Below, piece by piece: positions 2,581-21,606 of a stretch of 21,606 bases of DNA (its first letter is position 1; each line of letters opens with the position of its first letter). Source of the stretch: a virus; the IMG/VR virus record IMGVR_UViG_3300028829_004942, positions 1 to 21,606 of that record; one strand, 5' to 3'. The notes below the pieces were generated by a model. It was not told where the DNA came from. It saw nothing but the letters and a program-made list of their open reading frames with translations, and did not search any database. Both the position numbers and the translations under genes were made by a program.

Positions 2581-2623
2581 ATTTCGGCCCTAGCACTACC
2601 CAGTACCTACCCTGTATAACGAA

Positions 2624-2725
2624 ACCGCTCCGTGCCGTCCTATCGCCCGTGCCCGGTAAGGAGGGTAGCAAGGAGCCAACCGGGGGTAAAATCGGGATCA
2701 GTTTTCTAGGACGGGACGGAGCGGT
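2624..2725. repeat. 102-base inverted-repeat structure in convergent intergenic region
   Basis: The arms 2624-2642 and 2707-2725 are complementary over 19 bp with one mismatch (position 11 of the left arm). Inside, CCCG (2646-2649) can pair with CGGG (2693-2696), and CCCGGT (2652-2657) with ACCGGG (2679-2684), leaving a 21-base purine-rich apical loop. The element fills most of the 238-base gap between the rightward tail operon and the leftward replication operon; no gene is supported in that gap. It could be a bidirectional terminator, a transcript-stabilising hairpin or a small RNA. Read on the minus strand, the loop contains two CTCCTT-type anti-Shine-Dalgarno sequences. Confidence 0.55.
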
Positions 2726-2775
2726 CGCACCGTGTATTTTAACTCTAGTAATTTACCAAATTGCTCAAGGATCAG

Positions 2776-4755
2776 TCAATGGCCATCTTCCACTACTTCA
2801 CCCCAGGACGGTCCGATGTCTAGGCCGACCCTAATCGGCACGTTAAACTTTAGAGCGTTTTCCATGACGTGATAGATGTCTTTAAATACTTCGTCTTTAC
2901 CACCGGGGTCACTAAAGTCAAGTTCATCGTGCACAGTAAGCCTCGGGTAGCCGACTTCTTTAAACAGGCCGTTCTCGTAGCATTGAAGCATAGCGTATTT
3001 AATTAGATCCGCAGCCGAACCCTGCAAGCGCCGGTTCAAAGCCTTGTGGACATAAGCGCGTCGCGGGTTAGGGTACAGCCTTACAGCTTGCTCAAAAGGC
3101 AGTGGTTTTGCTTCTTCTGTCCAAGACGACGGAACCCATGTGTCAAAGTAAGACCGACGTCCGCTTATGGTAGTGATGTAACCCATTGTTTCAGCTTCAC
3201 GCATTGAAGCTTCCATAGTGGCTTTCAAGAAAGGTGCCGCCCTATGTATTTCTTTAAAGAGCGACTTGGCTTTGCTTACATCTAGTTTCAGATAACGAGC
3301 TAAGCCAGTCTCTCCCATGCCGTAAGCGGCACCAAAGTTAATGTTCTTTACCAGAGAGCGTTCCATATCCCTGCCGGTAACTTCTTTAATAATGTTCTTA
3401 ACAATATTATGGAAGTCTGTGTCTGGCTCGGCATTGTATGTGGCCCGAACATTGTCGGCGCCGGGCCCTACTGCGTAATGCGCTAAGGCCCTGTATTCAA
3501 TCTGTGAGTAATCGGCTTTAATCCAACGCCGATGTCCTTCGTCGGGCACAAAACATTCTCGTACCTTATTGCCTAGCTCAGAACGGATTGGAATGTTTTG
3601 TAGGTTAGGTGTAGATGAGGAAAACCGGCCAGACCGGGTGCCCCCGCCCGTACCCCGTAGCTGATGAAACTGCCCGTACAGTCTCCCATTCTTATGTGAG
3701 TTAAGAATGTAGCCCTCGATAAAAGTACCCCGAAGCTTTTCCCGTTCTTTTTTCTGCAAAACCAAACGAGCTAATTCATGGTCTACAGACTGCAAAAAAG
3801 CCTTACGAAAGCTGGGTGCGCCTTTTTCCGTTAGTGGGTAGCGTAAACCAAATACATCAAATGCTTTGCGCAAACTGTCAGAAGCATTTGTATTAACGCT
3901 AAAACCGGCAAGCTCTTTTAACCTTTTGTCGATACCTTTCAAATCGTTTGTAAGCCCATCCCTAATTTGCTCGGTTTTGTCGATGTCTACACGCACACCG
4001 GCAAACCTCATTTCAATCATTAACGGGATTAGCTTACATTCGAGCTCAAACAGCTCCAGGAGCCCGTATTTTTCAAGCTCGGGCCATTGCTTCTCTAAGA
4101 CGCGAAATGGAAGATCGACGTCACTTTGTGCATAAGGGCCGACCAACGTAGGGGGCGCCCTGTGTATGTTCTTTCTTTGGCGCTCTGTATTTGGCCCACC
4201 ATAAAAAGAGGCACACCAATCATAGAGTTCACTGGATTCTTTACCAATGCCTAAGTAGCGCTCGCCTAGATCATCTAATGCAACCTTACGAGACTCTGCC
4301 AACAAAGCTTCGGCAAACTGTACGTCATAGAAAATGCCGCCCATATGAACACCTTCTTGGCGCAGCCATCCTACGTCGTATGTAATGTTTGCACCGATCT
4401 TAGGCTGCGGGCCCGTTAAATAATCTCTTGCCCAAGCAAGAACTTTATCGGGGTCGAGATTATCATCTGGCCGAACGGTGTGACGCATAGGAAAGTACCA
4501 ACGCCCACCATCAGGGGTGCCGACTGCAATACCCACAATATGGCCGGAATCCCTAGCCCATCCTGGCCCGTTTGTTAACAGTTCCGGGTCGTAGGTTTCC
4601 ACGTCCACGGCCAGTGCCGTTGCCCTAGACAAATTCGGTAGGTCTGTCGGCACTGGCCAACCCGTGTCCGGAATTGGGGGCATAACCCGTGCAGTTCGCT
4701 CACCCCTAACACGAGGTAAATCCTGCCAAAAGATGCCGATTGCGTCGGCTCTCAC
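2776..4755 (-). CDS. polA: Family A DNA polymerase with 3'-5' exonuclease domain
   Basis: This is a replicative PolI-type phage polymerase (~659 aa). The exonuclease domain shows ExoI DVE (about residues 51-53), ExoII NITYDVGWL (Asp ~127) and ExoIII YAQSD (~208-212). The polymerase domain has motif A KADYSQIE (Asp ~415), motif B with Lys ~470, Phe ~474 and Tyr ~478 (KNINFGAAYG), and motif C VHDE (His ~609). No N-terminal 5' nuclease domain is present, as usual for phage enzymes. I chose GTG at 4755 because it makes a GTGA overlap with the clamp stop, and because IGIFWQDLP downstream of it looks like part of the conserved N-terminus. An ATG at 4809 would overlap the clamp gene by 58 bases; an ATG at 4683 would lose that N-terminus. 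It is the last gene of the leftward operon. Confidence 0.95.
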   Translation of the reverse strand: MRADAIGIFWQDLPRVRGERTARVMPPIPDTGWPVPTDLPNLSRATALAVDVETYDPELLTNGPGWARDSGHIVGIAVGTPDGGRWYFPMRHTVRPDDNLDPDKVLAWARDYLTGPQPKIGANITYDVGWLRQEGVHMGGIFYDVQFAEALLAESRKVALDDLGERYLGIGKESSELYDWCASFYGGPNTERQRKNIHRAPPTLVGPYAQSDVDLPFRVLEKQWPELEKYGLLELFELECKLIPLMIEMRFAGVRVDIDKTEQIRDGLTNDLKGIDKRLKELAGFSVNTNASDSLRKAFDVFGLRYPLTEKGAPSFRKAFLQSVDHELARLVLQKKEREKLRGTFIEGYILNSHKNGRLYGQFHQLRGTGGGTRSGRFSSSTPNLQNIPIRSELGNKVRECFVPDEGHRRWIKADYSQIEYRALAHYAVGPGADNVRATYNAEPDTDFHNIVKNIIKEVTGRDMERSLVKNINFGAAYGMGETGLARYLKLDVSKAKSLFKEIHRAAPFLKATMEASMREAETMGYITTISGRRSYFDTWVPSSWTEEAKPLPFEQAVRLYPNPRRAYVHKALNRRLQGSAADLIKYAMLQCYENGLFKEVGYPRLTVHDELDFSDPGGKDEVFKDIYHVMENALKFNVPIRVGLDIGPSWGEVVEDGH

Positions 4756-5723: not shown

Positions 5724-6102
5724 TGTAGTTAATCCAGTAGAAGGCGTCATCCAGGTCAGGTACAATCTGTGTCACATGGTACTCAACCCACGGACTCAAA
5801 GGCTTTCCTTGATAAACAAGCACAATGGGCTTACCTAGATCGTATGCGTAGATAATCTCCATACTGGTTCCTGCCGACGGTCCTTGCCAGTTAACCAGAA
5901 GCACATCGCTAAGCGTGATTTCTCTTTTGTCGAGAACTACAATGCTGCTTTGATTCTCTTGCTGTACACCCCTGTAGTCTCTGCGCATCGGATTAAAGAC
6001 GTCAATGCTGTACTGATCAGCAATCTCCGTGGCGTAACTGCGCCAACCCCGGCATTCGTCGTTAGTCTTTTCAAAGATTGGCCCACATAGATAAACACGC
6101 AT
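5707..6102 (-). CDS. Nucleoside 2-deoxyribosyltransferase-like / deoxynucleotide N-hydrolase-like protein
   Basis: This 131-aa protein has the family's landmarks: an N-terminal VYLCGPIF strand-loop (residues 3-10), VFNPMRRDY (~35-43), SDVLLVNW (~65-72) and PSAGTSMEIIYAYDLGKPI (~75-93) with the putative catalytic Glu82. Members either move 2-deoxyribose between bases (NDT) or hydrolyse the N-glycosidic bond of deoxynucleotides (DNPH1/Rcl-like); the sequence does not decide which. It starts at a TAATG overlap with the DpdA stop and overlaps the clamp start by 17 bases, so it is tightly embedded between DNA modification and replication genes. A role in handling bases or deoxynucleotides around 7-deazaguanine modification is inference. 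Confidence 0.75.
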   Translation of the reverse strand: MRVYLCGPIFEKTNDECRGWRSYATEIADQYSIDVFNPMRRDYRGVQQENQSSIVVLDKREITLSDVLLVNWQGPSAGTSMEIIYAYDLGKPIVLVYQGKPLSPWVEYHVTQIVPDLDDAFYWINYNVAGA

Positions 6103-7004
6103 TAGAACAATAGCTCCTGTTCGACAGTAAAACGGTCCGTAGCAGTTTCTGACATCATACTATATGTAACCATGTTGAAGCATTTACGAGTCAAATGCTC
6201 TTTACGCATTCGTGCGATGTCAAAACCAAGGTCTTCAATAATGCCGTAAAGAACGTCCCTGTGCTCCGGTGGCAAGTTATCAATGTGTTTGTCTTTTTCT
6301 TTTAACTGAGGTGCTAGTTCGGACACACTCATCATTCCCCACTTGGGAAAAAACACGTTTCCGATACCACCAAGCTGCACCCAAGACGAAGAATCCACCG
6401 AGTACCAAGGGTACCGCGCCATTAGAGGTATAGATGTTAACCCGAACCCGTGAACTTTCAGCTTTGGTGTACCATCTTTGTGCGTCATCCATTTGCCCCA
6501 AATCCTGTCTAGCCATATGCGCAACTGCGGTGTGGCGATCGGCACCATGCCGCCAATCGTAATGTATTCATAATGCTCCACATAGTAGGCCAAGACTTCT
6601 TCAGGCTCACCGTAGTGATAGCATGGCAGAACACTGATACCTTGTGATTCTATGTATTGCTGATTATGCCAAGTCCCGTCCGCGTCTCCAATAGCATCCA
6701 AAACAGATGCAACCTCTATCCATTCACTGTGCTCTTTGCAGTAAGCGCAGTAGGCATCTATATCCACGTCAATGCCTTGGGTAAAAGAGGAGAAAGCACC
6801 GGAATCTAAAAACACTTTACGTCCAGTTGTTTCCCAGTTGAACTTAACGCGCTCGATCATCCTAGGCTTATGGATGTAATGGTAAGAGTCGAGCAAGTAA
6901 GGAACTTCAAAGACAGCCCGTTTCTCGCGCTCATTAAGACGCGGCCAAAACGGGCTGCCTTCTCGGAAGTCGTTGTAAAGCAATGCTGCGAGATAGACTT
7001 TCAC
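6102..7004 (-). CDS. dpdA: DpdA-like DNA 7-deazaguanine transglycosylase (TGT-related)
   Basis: DpdA proteins are TGT-fold enzymes that replace guanine in DNA with preQ0 or a related base. This 300-aa protein shows the phage DpdA pattern: VFLDSGAFSSF (Asp67, nucleophile or base-recognition site), VLDAIGD (Asp103), YITIGGMVPI, KVHGFGLTS and YSVDSSSW (Asp204). The tRNA-binding zinc motif of bacterial TGT (CxCxxC...H) is absent, as in DpdA. Translation starts at GTG 7004 behind AAAGGA with a 6-base gap. It lies directly downstream of FolE, QueD, QueC and QueE, the preQ0 pathway, which makes the DNA-modification role strong. Which DpdA subfamily, and exactly which base it inserts, cannot be settled here. 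The preceding 39-base gap holds no gene. Confidence 0.88.
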   Translation of the reverse strand: MKVYLAALLYNDFREGSPFWPRLNEREKRAVFEVPYLLDSYHYIHKPRMIERVKFNWETTGRKVFLDSGAFSSFTQGIDVDIDAYCAYCKEHSEWIEVASVLDAIGDADGTWHNQQYIESQGISVLPCYHYGEPEEVLAYYVEHYEYITIGGMVPIATPQLRIWLDRIWGKWMTHKDGTPKLKVHGFGLTSIPLMARYPWYSVDSSSWVQLGGIGNVFFPKWGMMSVSELAPQLKEKDKHIDNLPPEHRDVLYGIIEDLGFDIARMRKEHLTRKCFNMVTYSMMSETATDRFTVEQELLF

Positions 7005-10335: not shown

Positions 10336-10614
10336 TTATGCAGCAGCCTTTTCAGGAGCTTTGCGCTTCGAAGCGAGGCCGTGAAACTGCCGCCACCGTC
10401 CATACTGCGTAGCAATCGTGGCCTTGTTCAGCCCCTCTGCTTCGGCCTTTGCCATAACAGCGCCGCGACCAATCGGCTCGCCAGAGGCTTCCGAGAGTTC
10501 ATCGGCAATGGCCCACACACGACCCGTCAATGTACCGTCCTTCGGGCGAGTGATTCCGTTGGCTTGTGGCTGCTTAGGCTTTGCCTCAGCCGCTTCTTCC
10601 TTCTTCTTGGCCAT
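10336..10614 (-). CDS. Small basic HTH-like protein, paralogue 1
   Basis: This 92-aa protein has a Lys/Ala/Glu-rich flexible N-terminus (1-25) and a compact helical domain from TGRVWAIADEL to ATQYGRWRQFHG (~29-78). The domain is shared with the next gene upstream and with the partial gene at 21177: a VWA-type first helix, an EGLNKATIATQY recognition-like helix and a terminal aromatic-basic patch. The composition (Lys-rich tail plus small helical domain) suggests DNA binding, perhaps nucleoid-like or regulatory; the family is not recognised. It starts at ATG 10614 behind a strong AGGAGG with a 5-base gap, so it is probably well expressed. It follows its paralogue after a 62-base gap and precedes a strong hairpin. 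Confidence 0.75.
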   Translation of the reverse strand: MAKKKEEAAEAKPKQPQANGITRPKDGTLTGRVWAIADELSEASGEPIGRGAVMAKAEAEGLNKATIATQYGRWRQFHGLASKRKAPEKAAA

Positions 10615-11131: not shown

Positions 11132-11161
11132 AATTTACAAAGGGCCACGTGAATATGTCAA
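11132..11161 (-). promoter_or_regulatory. Leftward sigma70-like promoter for HTH/que/dpdA genes
   Basis: On the minus strand a perfect TTGACA (-35, 11161-11156) is followed after 18 bases by TAAATT (-10, 11137-11132). It lies in the 70-base gap after the membrane-protein gene and about 30 bases before the 141-aa HTH-like gene. It could give the preQ0/DpdA genes expression separate from the upstream helicase and nuclease genes. Confidence 0.6.
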
Positions 11162-16199: not shown

Positions 16200-16492
16200 A
16201 CTTCCTCCTCGGGTGGAAACAAATCTGGTACGTTTTCTAAATCTTCGTCAAAGTCGAAGCCTTCCATACGCATTGCATTTTTGCCTTGTTCATCAAACAC
16301 AGACGCAACCCTACGCAGTTCTTGGTCAATGGAGACGACAAGCTCCCCAATATGGCAATCGATAGTTAAGAACTTGCGTAGCCTGTAAAGAGCAATACAG
16401 TACAGCACCGGGTCGTGCGTAGAAAGCTCTACTCTCTCAGTGTGCAAACGTAATTGTGATTGCAAGCTACGGGCTTTGTCGATGTTGTGCAT
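16196..16492 (-). CDS. Hypothetical protein (98 aa), first gene of leftward operon
   Basis: I do not recognise this protein. It is largely helical with a very acidic C-terminus (FDFDEDLENVPDLFPPEEEV). The ATG at 16492 has no clear Shine-Dalgarno, so the start is uncertain. It is the first gene after the divergent control region, and its stop overlaps the next start (ATGA). The acidic tail might contact an SSB- or DNA-binding partner, which is speculation. Confidence 0.65.
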   Translation of the reverse strand: MHNIDKARSLQSQLRLHTERVELSTHDPVLYCIALYRLRKFLTIDCHIGELVVSIDQELRRVASVFDEQGKNAMRMEGFDFDEDLENVPDLFPPEEEV

Positions 16493-16948: not shown

Positions 16949-19149
16949 GCTTACCGAAAGCCCTAATAGACTGTCCACAATGGTTGGTTAGCGGTCCCGA
17001 TAAAGCGCCTCGTTCTGTGCATACGGGCGTTTATGCCGATGTACGCGACCCTAATGCGTACACGGGCTATCAAGAGGCTTTTGAGTATGCCAGTGTGCGC
17101 GGTTGGAACGTCGGGTTTGCCTTACGCGCTGAAGACGGCTTTGCTGTTATCGACCTGGACGAGCCGGATACCCCGGAACAGGCCGAAAGGCATAGCAAAC
17201 TGATCGACGCTTTTCACAGCTATACGGAACTTTCCCGGAGTGAGCAAGGTGCCCATATATGGTTACGGGGAAATGTGGCTCGAGGTGTGCGCCGTAGTAA
17301 GGTAGAATTGTATAGCGAGGCCCGTTATATGATCTGCACCGGCAACACCATACGCGATCTGCCTATTGCTGAGGGCGGGGAGTTGCTCGCCGCTTTATTT
17401 ACTGAGATGGGTGGGCAGGACGAGCAAAGCGAAAGCGAGCTGGTAGAGGTTGGGGAAGTTAAAAGCGACATGGTTGTAATTGACATGGCCAGCCGCGCCG
17501 TAAATGGCGATAAGTTTGATATGCTCTGCCGAGGTGAGTGGGAGCTGTACTACACGAGCCAATCAGAGGCCGACTACGCACTAATGAATATGCTGGCGTT
17601 TTATAGCGCTAGTAATGAGCAATGTCGTCGGCTGTTTAGGTATTCGGGGTTAGGCAAAAGAGCGAAGGCCCAGCGGGATAAGTACCTGAACTATATGCTT
17701 ACTAAGATCAGGTCAGAAGAGCCAGAACCAGTTGATTTAAGTGTACTGGTCGAAAGAGTGGCTGACAGCAAAAGGGAAGGTGTGGCTGAAGATGCAGATG
17801 TATGGGACCGGCGGTTGCCTCCTGGTTTGGTGGGTAGGTTGTCACAATACATTACGGAATCTGCGCCAAGGCCGGTAAAGGAAGTCGGCATTGTGGCTGC
17901 GCTCAGTATGTCTGCCGGGATTATGGGACGGCAGTTTAATGTGAGCGGTACCGGCCTGAACCTGTACTGCATCCTGTTGGCTAAGACGGGCACGGGTAAA
18001 GAGGGCGGTGCAAGCGGCATCGAAAGACTGCTGCACGAAGTGAGGCAGAAGGTACCCAGTGTTGAGGTGTTCTTAGGGCCCGGTACATTTGCTTCTGGGC
18101 AAGCCATTATTCGGGCACTGGACGAAAAACCAAGCTTCTTTAGTGTGCTAGGCGAGTTCGGGCTAACCTTGCAAATGATGAGCGACCCAAGAGCGGGTAG
18201 CCATCTCGTTGTAATGCGGCGGGTGCTTTTGGACCTGTATGGCAAGAGTGGGAAGACATCTGTTTTGTACTCTACTGCCTACAGCGACAAGGAAAAGAAC
18301 ACTAAAATGTTGACGGCCCCGGCCATGACAATGTTTGGTGAGTCTACGCCCGACAGTTTTTATGCAGGGCTGTCCGAATCCCAGATTGCAGACGGGTTAA
18401 TCCCTCGTTTTCTCATTATGGAGTACCACGGTAGCCGTACAGCCAGGAACGACATGGCTTTTGCCAGTCCGGACGAGGCATTAGTAGACGAGCTATGCGA
18501 GCGGGTGGTTACGGCTTTGCAAATGATGAGCAACAACGTGTTTATGGATGTGCAAATCGGGCCGGATGCAACTGCTTTGTACGATAAGTTTGACCAAGAA
18601 TGCGATAATCATATTAATGCGGGTGGGGATGAGGCGACGAGGCAGATGTGGAATAGGGCACATCTCAAGGCACTGAAAATAGGTGGGGTGCTTGCCGCGA
18701 TGGACCGGCCACACAAACCTGTGATTAATGCCGAGGAAGCCCAATGGGCAATCGATGTGGTAATGACTGATCTCATTGGGCTTAATGCCCGGTTCGAACG
18801 AGGGGACGTTGGGGAGGGAGACAGCAAGCAGTATTCAGACTTGGTGCGTGTCCTTGCTCAGTACAGGAAATGGGATTACGAGACACTATCTAAATACAGG
18901 GTGCCACGACAACTGCATCGAGTAGGTGTTGTGCCGTTCACTTACTTGCAGCGGCGAGTAGCGGGTCTGTCTGCCTTTAAAAAGAGCAGAGTGGGCAGTA
19001 GGAGTGCTCTGGCAAGTGTAGTCAAGGAGGCCGTCGATACCGGCCTTTTAGTTCAGGTTTCTGCCAAACAGTTACAAATCGAAATGGATGTGGGTGAACG
19101 TAAATGGAGTGGTAGATTTTACAAAATTCGCGATAAGATGTTAAAGTAA
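16945..19149 (+). CDS. PrimPol-helicase (AEP primase + DUF3987-like ATPase)
   Basis: This 734-aa protein is a bifunctional replication initiator. The N-terminal archaeo-eukaryotic primase domain shows motif I VIDLDE (Asp70, Asp72), motif II SEQGAHIW (Ser99, His104) and motif III near VELYSEARYMICTG (120-133). Residues ~190-255 look like the helical bundle that follows PrimPol in NrS-1-type enzymes. Residues ~290-580 are a DUF3987-like ATPase with Walker A AKTGTGKE (346-353). The C-terminus holds a winged-helix-like region (YETLSKYRVPRQLHRVG...). It starts at GTG overlapping the Cro-like stop. It would synthesise primers and open DNA for the PolA/clamp system encoded leftward. Confidence 0.87.
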   Translation: MSLPKALIDCPQWLVSGPDKAPRSVHTGVYADVRDPNAYTGYQEAFEYASVRGWNVGFALRAEDGFAVIDLDEPDTPEQAERHSKLIDAFHSYTELSRSEQGAHIWLRGNVARGVRRSKVELYSEARYMICTGNTIRDLPIAEGGELLAALFTEMGGQDEQSESELVEVGEVKSDMVVIDMASRAVNGDKFDMLCRGEWELYYTSQSEADYALMNMLAFYSASNEQCRRLFRYSGLGKRAKAQRDKYLNYMLTKIRSEEPEPVDLSVLVERVADSKREGVAEDADVWDRRLPPGLVGRLSQYITESAPRPVKEVGIVAALSMSAGIMGRQFNVSGTGLNLYCILLAKTGTGKEGGASGIERLLHEVRQKVPSVEVFLGPGTFASGQAIIRALDEKPSFFSVLGEFGLTLQMMSDPRAGSHLVVMRRVLLDLYGKSGKTSVLYSTAYSDKEKNTKMLTAPAMTMFGESTPDSFYAGLSESQIADGLIPRFLIMEYHGSRTARNDMAFASPDEALVDELCERVVTALQMMSNNVFMDVQIGPDATALYDKFDQECDNHINAGGDEATRQMWNRAHLKALKIGGVLAAMDRPHKPVINAEEAQWAIDVVMTDLIGLNARFERGDVGEGDSKQYSDLVRVLAQYRKWDYETLSKYRVPRQLHRVGVVPFTYLQRRVAGLSAFKKSRVGSRSALASVVKEAVDTGLLVQVSAKQLQIEMDVGERKWSGRFYKIRDKMLK

Positions 19150-19361
19150 ACTTATACTACAAGGCATCAGGAAAGGGGTTAAGTTGTTATGGGGCAACGA
19201 GGTATAAGGGTTTATAGTAAAAACCCCCCCTATATATGTTACCCCCCCACCCCCCCCTTATACCCCTTATACCCTTATACTACTCTTATATATATTAAGT
19301 AAATACGGGGGTTGTTGGGGTGCTTGAGTAGTGAAAGGGAGCGTTATACTTCGTTATACTT
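19150..19361 (+). repeat. TTATAC repeats and C-tracts: candidate replication origin
   Basis: The 257-base gap after the primase gene holds no gene. It contains TTATAC at 19152, 19258, 19267, 19275, 19344 and 19354, plus the reverse complement at 19202. The 10-mer CGTTATACTT is tandemly repeated (19342-19361). GGTATAAGGG (19201-19210) is inverted at 19255-19264. C-runs of 7, 7, 8, 4 and 3 (19224-19274) could form a G-quadruplex on the minus strand. An AT-rich TATATATATT-like stretch follows (19286-19295). Repeats, an easily melted stretch and proximity to the PrimPol gene suggest an origin. Confidence 0.5.
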
Positions 19362-19862: not shown

Positions 19863-19925
19863 TGAAAATCACACTTGAGTAAAGATTAGCAAAAATCACA
19901 CTGAAAATCTCAAATGAAAATCACA
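19805..19925 (+). repeat. GAAAATCACA repeat cluster
   Basis: GAAAATCACA occurs exactly at 19805-19814 (inside the nuclease gene), 19864-19873 and 19916-19925. AAAATCACA also occurs at 19892-19900, and a partial GAAAATCTCA at 19903-19912. Spacings are irregular. This is an iteron-like array that may bind a replication or regulatory protein. The surrounding 19863-20145 stretch has no supported gene. Confidence 0.5.
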
Positions 19926-19991
19926 TTGGGGGCCCTCTGTTGGTTGGCTCATGGTCCGGGTTTGGGGTGGGGGCTGGGCGCGGATCAGGCG

Positions 19992-20021
19992 CAGGCGCGG
20001 CCTCTTCCGCCTGTTTTTCTT
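19992..20021 (+). terminator. Intrinsic terminator after primase/nuclease operon
   Basis: CAGGCG (19992-19997) pairs with CGCCTG (20008-20013) around a 10-base loop and is followed directly by TTTTTCTT. The strength is moderate. It separates the nuclease operon from the small-gene cluster starting at 20147. Confidence 0.6.
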
Positions 20022-20073
20022 CAGCCGCACCGGATCGTGTAACAATCTACTGCGCCCGGATCGTGAGCCCCTT

Positions 20074-20147
20074 TACATCCTCCTTGCGCATAGGGTAAAT
20101 TACTCTATGAACACGGGCACTGGGCTCGTGACAACAAGGAGGATGTA
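20074..20147 (+). promoter_or_regulatory. Three-way-junction 5' leader sequestering a Shine-Dalgarno site
   Basis: Outer stem P1: TACATCCTCCTTG (20074-20086) pairs perfectly, 13 bp, with 20135-20147, which contains AAGGAGG (20136-20142) and the first base of the start codon. Inside are P2 (20089-20098 with 20100-20109, CATAG/CTATG plus GTAA/TTAC around a G-U pair, tight at the tip) and P3 (CACGGG 20112-20117 with CTCGTG 20125-20130, 7-base loop). The junction linkers are only 2, 2 and 4 bases. Such a layout resembles a riboswitch or protein-binding leader that blocks translation; it matches no riboswitch class I know. CGGATCGTG is repeated upstream (20031-20039, 20057-20065). Confidence 0.55.
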
Positions 20148-20380
20148 TGTACGTGAACCGTACCGAGATCCACGTTATTGAAGCCTACGGGCGCTCGTAC
20201 AACGAGCTCCACGAGGCGCGAACAGCGTGGCACAACAACCTCGACTTTAGGGTCGTGGCTGTGTTCCCCCCGTTGCGATCGGGTAGGCACATCAACCGTA
20301 GCGACGCAATTAATTTCTCGCCCAATGCTACGATCACTTGGGTGGATCGTTACGGACACGAACTGGGAGTGTTAGCATGA
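20147..20380 (+). CDS. Hypothetical small protein (77 aa)
   Basis: This is a soluble protein of unknown family, mixed alpha/beta (TEIHVIEAYGRSYNELHEARTAWH, FRVVAVFPPL, ATITWVDRYGHEL). It starts at ATG 20147 behind AAGGAGG with a short 4-base gap, and that site is the one hidden in the leader structure. It heads a coupled run of small genes and overlaps the next by ATGA. Coding is GC-richer than in the replication genes. The context suggests an early accessory or host-takeover protein, which is inference. Confidence 0.65.
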   Translation: MYVNRTEIHVIEAYGRSYNELHEARTAWHNNLDFRVVAVFPPLRSGRHINRSDAINFSPNATITWVDRYGHELGVLA

Positions 20381-20592
20381 GCGAAGCGACACTCGCGGAA
20401 TGGCGCCAAGAAGGGTTCGGGGTATGGCAGTTCACGTTTGTCGTCGACGGCTATGATGACAAATATGTGCATCTTGTGCCCGGACGCCTTACGGAAGTCA
20501 TTGCCGAGGGTCTGGCCAAGCATCACTGTGCCACCGAGCTCCGCACCAAGCGTAGGTTCGTATATACCATCTATGCCGAGAAGCTAACATGA
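20377..20592 (+). CDS. Hypothetical small protein (71 aa)
   Basis: No family is recognised. It has a beta-hairpin-like centre (FGVWQFTFVVDGYDDKYVHLVPG) followed by a helix (LTEVIAEGLAKHHC) and a basic strand (RTKRRFVYTIYAEKL). I chose ATG 20377, which overlaps the preceding stop (ATGA), rather than an in-frame ATG at 20338 inside the upstream gene. Its stop overlaps the duplicated mini-ORF start at 20589. Confidence 0.65.
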   Translation: MSEATLAEWRQEGFGVWQFTFVVDGYDDKYVHLVPGRLTEVIAEGLAKHHCATELRTKRRFVYTIYAEKLT

Positions 20593-20608
20593 GCCGCTTA
20601 GAGACATT
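20587..20608 (+). repeat. 22-bp direct repeat, copy 1 of 2
   Basis: These 22 bases are identical to 20846-20867, 259 bases downstream. Each copy holds the start codon and first six codons of a gene (MSRLETL). The copies flank the 68-aa gene, suggesting its insertion with partial duplication. Confidence 0.75.
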
Positions 20609-20845: not shown

Positions 20846-20867
20846 ACATGAGCCGCTTAGAGACATT
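20846..20867 (+). repeat. 22-bp direct repeat, copy 2 of 2
   Basis: This is the exact match of 20587-20608; it begins two bases before the start codon of the 81-aa gene and runs into its seventh codon. Confidence 0.75.
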
Positions 20868-21093
20868 AAAGCAGCGCGCCGAAGTGGCGGGGGTGAAGCT
20901 AAGTAGCTGGAGCCCCGGCGACGGCGTGACCAGATACCGGATCCATTTAACCAAGGACGAGTACTTTAGTGCGGGGGGAACAGGATGTATGACGTACCTC
21001 GGGATTGCCGAAGCGGAAGTAGCGGTATCCACGCTACTGTGGGCACAGTGGACACTCCCGAACCTTTGTAACAATGTGCCGATCGGGGGTTGA
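20848..21093 (+). CDS. Hypothetical small protein (81 aa)
   Basis: No family is recognised. The N-terminal helix (SRLETLKQRAEVAG) is followed by beta segments (TRYRIHLTKDEYFSAGG) and a hydrophobic, Trp-containing helix (AEAEVAVSTLLWAQWTLPNL). It starts at ATG 20848 behind GGGAGGG with a gap of about 6 bases. The same start sequence is duplicated at 20589, showing this gene once probably followed the 71-aa gene directly through an ATGA overlap. Confidence 0.65.
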   Translation: MSRLETLKQRAEVAGVKLSSWSPGDGVTRYRIHLTKDEYFSAGGTGCMTYLGIAEAEVAVSTLLWAQWTLPNLCNNVPIGG

Positions 21094-21118
21094 CGATCCT
21101 ATACCCCCACCATTAAAT
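21090..21118 (+). promoter_or_regulatory. Candidate promoter for the last gene
   Basis: TTGACG (21090-21095) and TTAAAT (21113-21118) are separated by 17 bases. It begins over the stop codon of the preceding gene, and the 83-base gap before the next start would carry a leader of about 50 bases. Confidence 0.5.
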
Positions 21119-21176
21119 TTGTTCAGTGAGTCGGGGGGTTCGCCCTCGACTACTTCATCACCGGCTAGGAGCCAAA

Positions 21177-21606
21177 ATGACAGACGCACAGAAGCAGATC
21201 CGACAGTCCTTGAAGACCATCGAGCGGGCCCAGTACCTGAAGGCCAGCCCGAAGGCGGACCTGATCACACGGGCGACGGCCCTTGGGGCGGACCTGGAAG
21301 GCGCCAAGACCAAGGACGACATCTACGACGCCATGATCGCTGTGGCCAACCTTCCCGACCCGTCCCTCCGGGGCCGGAGCTTGATAGAGGCTCCTGTGGC
21401 CTACGTCTGGCACTGGCTCAACGAAAGGCGCGAGGCCGTGAGCTCCAAAGAGCTCCGTCGTAAGGACGCAGTTGCTGACCTCCAAAAGGAAGGGATCGCG
21501 TACCACACCGCACGGACCCAGTTCCAGGTGTGGTTCAGCACCACGAACCGCGGGGCACGCGCCATCACTGAGCTCACTGGGGACGATCTCCCTAAGTCGA
21601 TGCGCG
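21177..21606 (+). CDS. HTH-like protein, paralogue 3, 3' partial
   Basis: The frame runs open from ATG 21177 to the window edge (143 codons seen). It has AGGAG with a 6-base gap. The first ~60 residues are helical and basic (TDAQKQIRQSLKTIERAQYLK...). Residues ~75-125 contain the module shared with the proteins at 10336 and 10677: VAYVWHWLNER, then RKDAVADLQKEGIAYHTA and RTQFQVWFSTT. The downstream part (ARAITELTGDDLPKS) continues outside the window. DNA binding is inferred from the module. Frames in other registers here, on either strand, lack this support. Confidence 0.72.
   Translation, partial: MTDAQKQIRQSLKTIERAQYLKASPKADLITRATALGADLEGAKTKDDIYDAMIAVANLPDPSLRGRSLIEAPVAYVWHWLNERREAVSSKELRRKDAVADLQKEGIAYHTARTQFQVWFSTTNRGARAITELTGDDLPKSMR

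Follow-up and report, generated by a model that had tools for sequence, protein, structure and literature searches.

How can a gene be expressed when its ribosome binding site is folded away by the leader that precedes it? The question is raised by a 21,606-base IMG/VR fragment of a siphophage (IMGVR_UViG_3300028829_004942; the whole of this stretch is called the window below), in which the Shine-Dalgarno sequence (SD) of a small gene, ORF1, lies within a branched leader that a preliminary description regarded as riboswitch-like. In our judgement a promoter-like site explains the anatomy of this leader better than a riboswitch does, and we consider it rather likely that the leader is a promoter-embedded lock on the ribosome binding site (RBS), of the kind described for gene e of phage T4.

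Genomic context of the locus

The relatives of the window siphophage are BcepGomr, Stenotrophomonas phage ply2008005c, Me-ZS1 and the Queuovirinae. That the phage makes deazaguanines, as had been stated, is supported by QueC, QueD, a QueE-like radical SAM protein and FolE, together with a DpdA-like protein at 6102-7004. The minus strand carries all of these genes and also those for PolA and a beta-clamp-like protein, with the que, folE and dpdA genes ~10-14 kb from the leader; the primase and RusA-like resolvase genes are on the plus strand. In the relatives, RusA is followed by small unknown genes and then by lysis genes and terminase. A second record, IMGVR_UViG_3300028829_002310 (L023), continues the same phage, with 144 identical bp at the right end of the window, and beyond this overlap carries small genes and then a terminase-like ORF in the L010 portion, recognised by eye. 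The gene order in the relatives and in L023 thus places ORF1 at the transition from replication genes to late genes.

Searches for ORF1-4 against phages, PHROGs, Pfam and viral contigs gave no usable relatives; a weak match of ORF1 in MW202622 was rejected for its unrelated context. The ATGA overlap suggests that ORF2 is probably translationally coupled to ORF1, so that locking ORF1 should affect ORF2 too. Elsewhere in the window, an exact 22-bp repeat, ACATGAGCCGCTTAGAGACATT, stands at two gene starts (20587-20608 and 20846-20867); its first copy opens a mere 13-codon frame and is probably the relic of a duplication. A 92-aa protein encoded before QueE (10336-10614, minus strand) has 52% identity over 73 aa to a protein of Pseudomonas phage Iggy annotated as a putative transcriptional activator, and ORF5 (21177-21606, plus strand) is a distant relative. 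The gene right after RusA in the relative G002 (L009, 3658-3837) encodes a short hydrophobic protein which by eye resembles a Flp-type pilin.

Table 1. Features of the leader, its surroundings and comparable hairpins (window coordinates unless a phage is named).
Feature	Position	Strand	Remarks
Helix A, 5' arm	19946-19961	+	pairs with 20054-20069; 16 bp, 3 G-U
Terminator-like hairpin	19986-20019	+	CAGGCG...CGCCTG, then TTTTT; -12.8 kcal/mol; between RusA and leader
Helix A, 3' arm	20054-20069	+	adjoins P1 in read-through RNA
Promoter-like site TTTACA-N18-TAAATT	20072-20101	+	sigma-70-type scan; predicted start ~20106-20110
P1, 5' arm (anti-SD arm)	20074-20086	+	TACATCCTCCTTG; perfect 13-bp complement of 20135-20147
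P2 hairpin	20089-20109	+	20089-20097/20101-20109; 9 bp, one G-U
P3 hairpin	20112-20130	+	20112-20118/20124-20130; 7 bp, one G-U
P1, 3' arm	20135-20147	+	CAAGGAGGATGTA; holds SD and, as its last base, the A of the ORF1 ATG
SD of ORF1, AAGGAGG	20136-20142	+	unpaired probability 0.0008
ORF1, 77 aa, locked gene	20147-20380	+	ATG at 20147; SD in P1
ORF2	20377-20592	+	ATG overlaps ORF1 stop (ATGA)
Second rightward motif copy	21090-21119	+	before ORF5; 9-bp hairpin at similar offset
Leftward motif copy	11132-11161	-	exact TTGACA-N18-TAAATT; before 11102 gene
Leftward motif copy	2750-2779	-	end of DNA polymerase gene
Promoter-embedded SD-locking hairpin, RHEph05	L031, 33355-33440	-	
Promoter-embedded SD-locking hairpin, Y55	L037, 405-490	-	
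Promoter-embedded SD-locking hairpin, N17	L038, 420-505	-	
Promoter-embedded SD-locking hairpin, Erebus	L039, 411-498	-	

The leader folds into a three-way junction

The fold of the leader (20074-20147) as first drawn is real. The closing stem, P1, is paired at 13 of 13 positions by Watson-Crick pairs, the two internal hairpins P2 and P3 complete a three-way junction, and the linkers are indeed of 2, 2 and 4 bases (CG, AA and ACAA); the minimum free energy and centroid folds agree, and none of 200 shuffles was equally stable (z = -4.8). The AAGGAGG of ORF1, which had been described as buried in P1, has the lowest unpaired probability among the 17 starts scored and is the fullest anti-SD match among the window starts checked. 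Among 1,832 SD/start sites surveyed in 18 pieces of phage sequence, P1 is the third-longest SD lock; the two longer ones are both simple hairpins, and the leader is the sole clean three-way junction among the top locks.

Directly 5' of the leader, read-through RNA would carry a helix larger than P1, helix A, and the segment that comprises both (19938-20152) folds with z = -6.2. Helix A encloses the terminator-like hairpin (19946-20069). Further upstream, TGAAAATCACA occurs in four degenerate copies after the RusA gene (19863-19930), with one more ATGAAAATCACA at the 3' end of that gene. The gap between primase and RusA holds a very C-rich and then a TATA-rich tract (19215-19300), possibly a replication origin region; L004 has a G-run 5' of its RusA.

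A promoter-like site coincides with the parts of the junction

By promoter score, using a matrix entered by hand, the site at 20072-20101 ranks third on the plus strand. Junction and promoter share their parts: the -35 TTTACA (20072-20077) overlaps the 5' arm of P1, whose remaining bases occupy the spacer between -35 and -10, and the -10 TAAATT (20096-20101) sits inside P2. An RNA with the predicted start at ~20108 drops the 5' arm of P1 and retains the SD together with P3, which would become its 5'-terminal hairpin. The -10 matches the sigma-70 consensus, which may not be that of the host, at only four of six positions, and this counts against our proposal.

Four matches to the motif TTGACA-N18-TAAATT, allowing one mismatch at most, are present in the window, where 0.08 would be expected; none of 100 shuffles reached this number. 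The motif was picked from the leader site itself, and without that site three copies remain against 0.08 expected. Among spacers of 10-26, only 18 gives more than one match in the window. No copy was found in ~500 kb of other phage sequence, a small set chosen by kinship that includes the contig continuing this phage. A gene start lies just downstream of three of the four sites, both rightward sites have a strong hairpin 10-11 nt past the -10 (P3 and 21129-21151), and the sites at 20072 and 2779 share GGTAAATTACT around the -10, which in the leader is part of P2. The site at 2779 reads leftward (2600-2779, minus strand) into a strongly paired 100-nt element between convergent genes (2624-2732), which may be a small RNA or a terminator acting in both directions.

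Two RNA species would differ in access to the ribosome binding site

We propose that RNA reading through from the primase/RusA region would carry the anti-SD arm (20074-20086), which, being made first, would capture AAGGAGG once this is transcribed, so that the junction would prevent translation of ORF1, and of the genes coupled to it, from this RNA. The internal promoter would start RNA near 20108, and this RNA, with no anti-SD arm and P3 as its 5' hairpin, would expose the SD. For RNA truncated to start at 20108, the predicted SD accessibility is ~0.63 instead of 0.0008, and opening the SD is predicted to cost 1.3 kcal/mol (5.6 when a shorter context is modelled), where the full leader requires 16-18. 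Because the internally started RNA is without the anti-SD arm, expression of ORF1 would follow this promoter and not read-through. The terminator-like hairpin may reduce read-through, with the lock silencing the remainder; the same hairpin can be held against the proposal, since there may then be hardly any read-through RNA for the lock to act on. The proposal is built on the computed fold with the energy needed to open it, the repeated occurrence of the motif, the better access to the SD after truncation and the presence of the design in four related phages; promoter activity, the position of the RNA start, the existence of read-through RNA and late timing are what we infer.

Related phages carry putative promoter-embedded locks

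We collected the starts whose SD lock has at least eight pairs and scored, for each, the best promoter with a start falling between the arms. Four of 50 locks scored 10.8-13.8, with the next best at 6.8: this leader, gp047 of RHEph05 (TTGACA-17-TAAGAT with an 11-bp lock, between folE and dpdA), the terminase small subunit of the Microcystis phage Me-ZS1 (L029, 36610-36700, minus strand; TTGACA-18-TAACAT with nine pairs, one G-U, before the gene) and a weaker case in Iggy. Compared with other starts (54 of 1750), this frequency of strong promoters is not significant alone (Fisher p 0.07).

More telling than this count is the conservation, at sequence level, among the Rhizobium phages RHEph05, Y55 and N17 and the Aminobacter phage Erebus, all of them deazaguanine phages. 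In each, TTGACA is followed by an anti-SD arm, a -10-like element, a loop, the SD arm and a small gene after folE, near dpdA. Whereas neither TTGACA nor the SD arm GGAACCCC varies, the 5' arm changes its position with respect to the -35. Two of the phages have a helix lengthened inward and the other two one lengthened outward, and an outer pair that is A-T in N17 appears as G-C in Erebus, with the helix preserved. The locks of these other phages are not homologous to the leader, which counts against our proposal; they show, at sequence level, that related phages use the arrangement. As a reading that we consider less likely than not, we put forward that siphophages which make deazaguanines have in common, across several hosts, a hitherto unreported regulatory unit, in which an anti-SD arm in or beside the promoter spacer would make read-through RNA silence itself and leave only RNA from the local promoter to be translated, here in the form of a three-way junction.

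In G002, a phage with a 46% identical primase, a 20-bp hairpin buries the AGGAGG of a 110-aa gene (L024, 16370-16464, plus strand); this hairpin (16413-16456) follows a capsid-like gene and its terminator.

Alternative readings of the leader

The alternative that survives best, although we think it unlikely, is a lock without an internal promoter, always on or controlled by processing, in which RNase III cleavage or a ribosome from an upstream or overlapping frame (e.g. 19951-20181) would release the SD, or ORF1 would simply be kept low. Long stacked helices would suit RNase III, an open frame does cross the leader, and the G002 hairpin is a simple SD lock after a terminator. However, the promoter-like motif is present many more times than chance would give, and the overlapping frame shows no sign of being a gene besides its openness.

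Less likely still is that the locus functions in DNA only, as a promoter with a palindromic operator and activator sites, the RNA lock being a by-product. P2 does correspond to a near-perfect 21-bp DNA palindrome over the -10, CATAGGGTAAATTACTCTATG, which occurs once in the window, and CCGGATCGTG is directly repeated at 20030 and 20056, just 5' of the -35, where the copies could be activator sites. Against this, a 13-bp partner covering this SD arose in 1.75e-5 of 400,000 Markov shuffles (150 nt upstream), so that a perfect complement of this kind has a chance of ~2e-5, and the non-Watson-Crick positions of P2, P3 and helix A are all G-U on the plus strand, as a helix search that permitted G-U would favour. 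A DNA-level function and the RNA lock are not mutually exclusive.

That the leader is a translational riboswitch or a protein-responsive aptamer, with a ligand (preQ0, preQ1 or another) at the junction setting whether P1 hides the SD, appears very improbable, for all that the compact junction, the buried SD and the deazaguanine pathway of the same phage would fit it. In the ligand-free full leader, the P1 state lies 16-18 kcal/mol below any SD-open state (modelled at 37 C), and we found no SD-free competing fold of similar energy, so there is nothing for a ligand or for heat to switch. Moreover, the distant que genes on the other strand provide no link, and the junction parts double as promoter parts. 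The leader belongs, as had been thought, to no known class: an Rfam scan at E up to 5, preQ1-I/II/III included, returned only a chance snoRNA match. Nor did we find a second copy in the record or a relative in 2.9 million viral contigs, where P1 as an exact pattern is absent; a junction-specific pattern search gave no match. A shorter P1 core matched 11 stretches, about as many as by chance and none of them a clean three-way junction before a gene, and the single match of the P1 pattern in bacterial genomes, in a Sumerlaeia MAG, is without the architecture. The nearest relative, L008 (82% DNA identity), stops at window position 18869, short of the leader, and in L004 and L009 the small genes that directly follow RusA come without such a leader. 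Of the initial interpretation, the junction, the buried SD, the lack of a known class and the deazaguanine phage stand, and the riboswitch is not supported.

An RNA thermometer, for which an SD held in a helix near the start codon would speak, is the most improbable reading of all, since the model requires 16 kcal/mol to open the SD at 37 C and 11 even at 60 C, where it stays shut, and so gives no opening in the physiological range.

Discussion

The promoter-embedded lock proposed here has its closest counterpart in T4, where a long early RNA hides the RBS of gene e and an RNA from a late promoter in the structure's 5' strand is translated, and where soc, 49 and I-TevI have RBS locks too (PMC3014915). 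As in gene e, the SD of ORF1 and the A of its start codon lie in a stable helix of upstream-started RNA, a site that is promoter-like in sequence overlaps the 5' strand of this helix and would yield RNA lacking that strand, and the SD is predicted to be accessible in the internally started RNA. The T4 locks, however, are simple stem-loops with sigma-gp55 late promoters (TATAAATA), whereas the leader is a three-way junction with a -35/-10 site and an arm mostly in the spacer; gene e encodes lysozyme, which ORF1 does not. The hairpins of Aeromonas phage Aeh1 mobE and T4 segB, cited in the same work (PMC3014915), precede free-standing homing endonuclease genes, whereas here a branched fold precedes the gene of a 77-aa protein for which we found no relatives.

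Inverted repeats also stand beside translation starts in cluster K mycobacteriophages, whose extended start-associated sequences (ESAS) occur many times per genome upstream of a conserved 13-bp start-associated motif, with spacers of mostly 4-13 bp (PMC3203893). In contrast, the leader is present in one copy, has the SD inside one arm and encloses a branched interior of 48 nt. With the preQ1 riboswitches of Rfam it shares SD occlusion and a related metabolite pathway in the phage, but its architecture is different and it does not precede a pathway gene. The maturation gene of MS2 has a branched cloverleaf leader, closed by an upstream sequence that pairs with the SD, and is translated during a folding delay of one RNA species; here, two RNA species are proposed.

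Should our reading hold, a candidate orphan riboswitch would turn out to be a simple timing device based on two transcripts, and the principle of T4 gene e would extend from T4-type phages to siphophages that have small genomes and -35/-10 promoters. For orphan SD-hiding leaders, it would be worth looking for a promoter inside the fold before the label of riboswitch is applied. The Rhizobium and Aminobacter phages that provide the other examples can be grown, which makes the idea directly testable.
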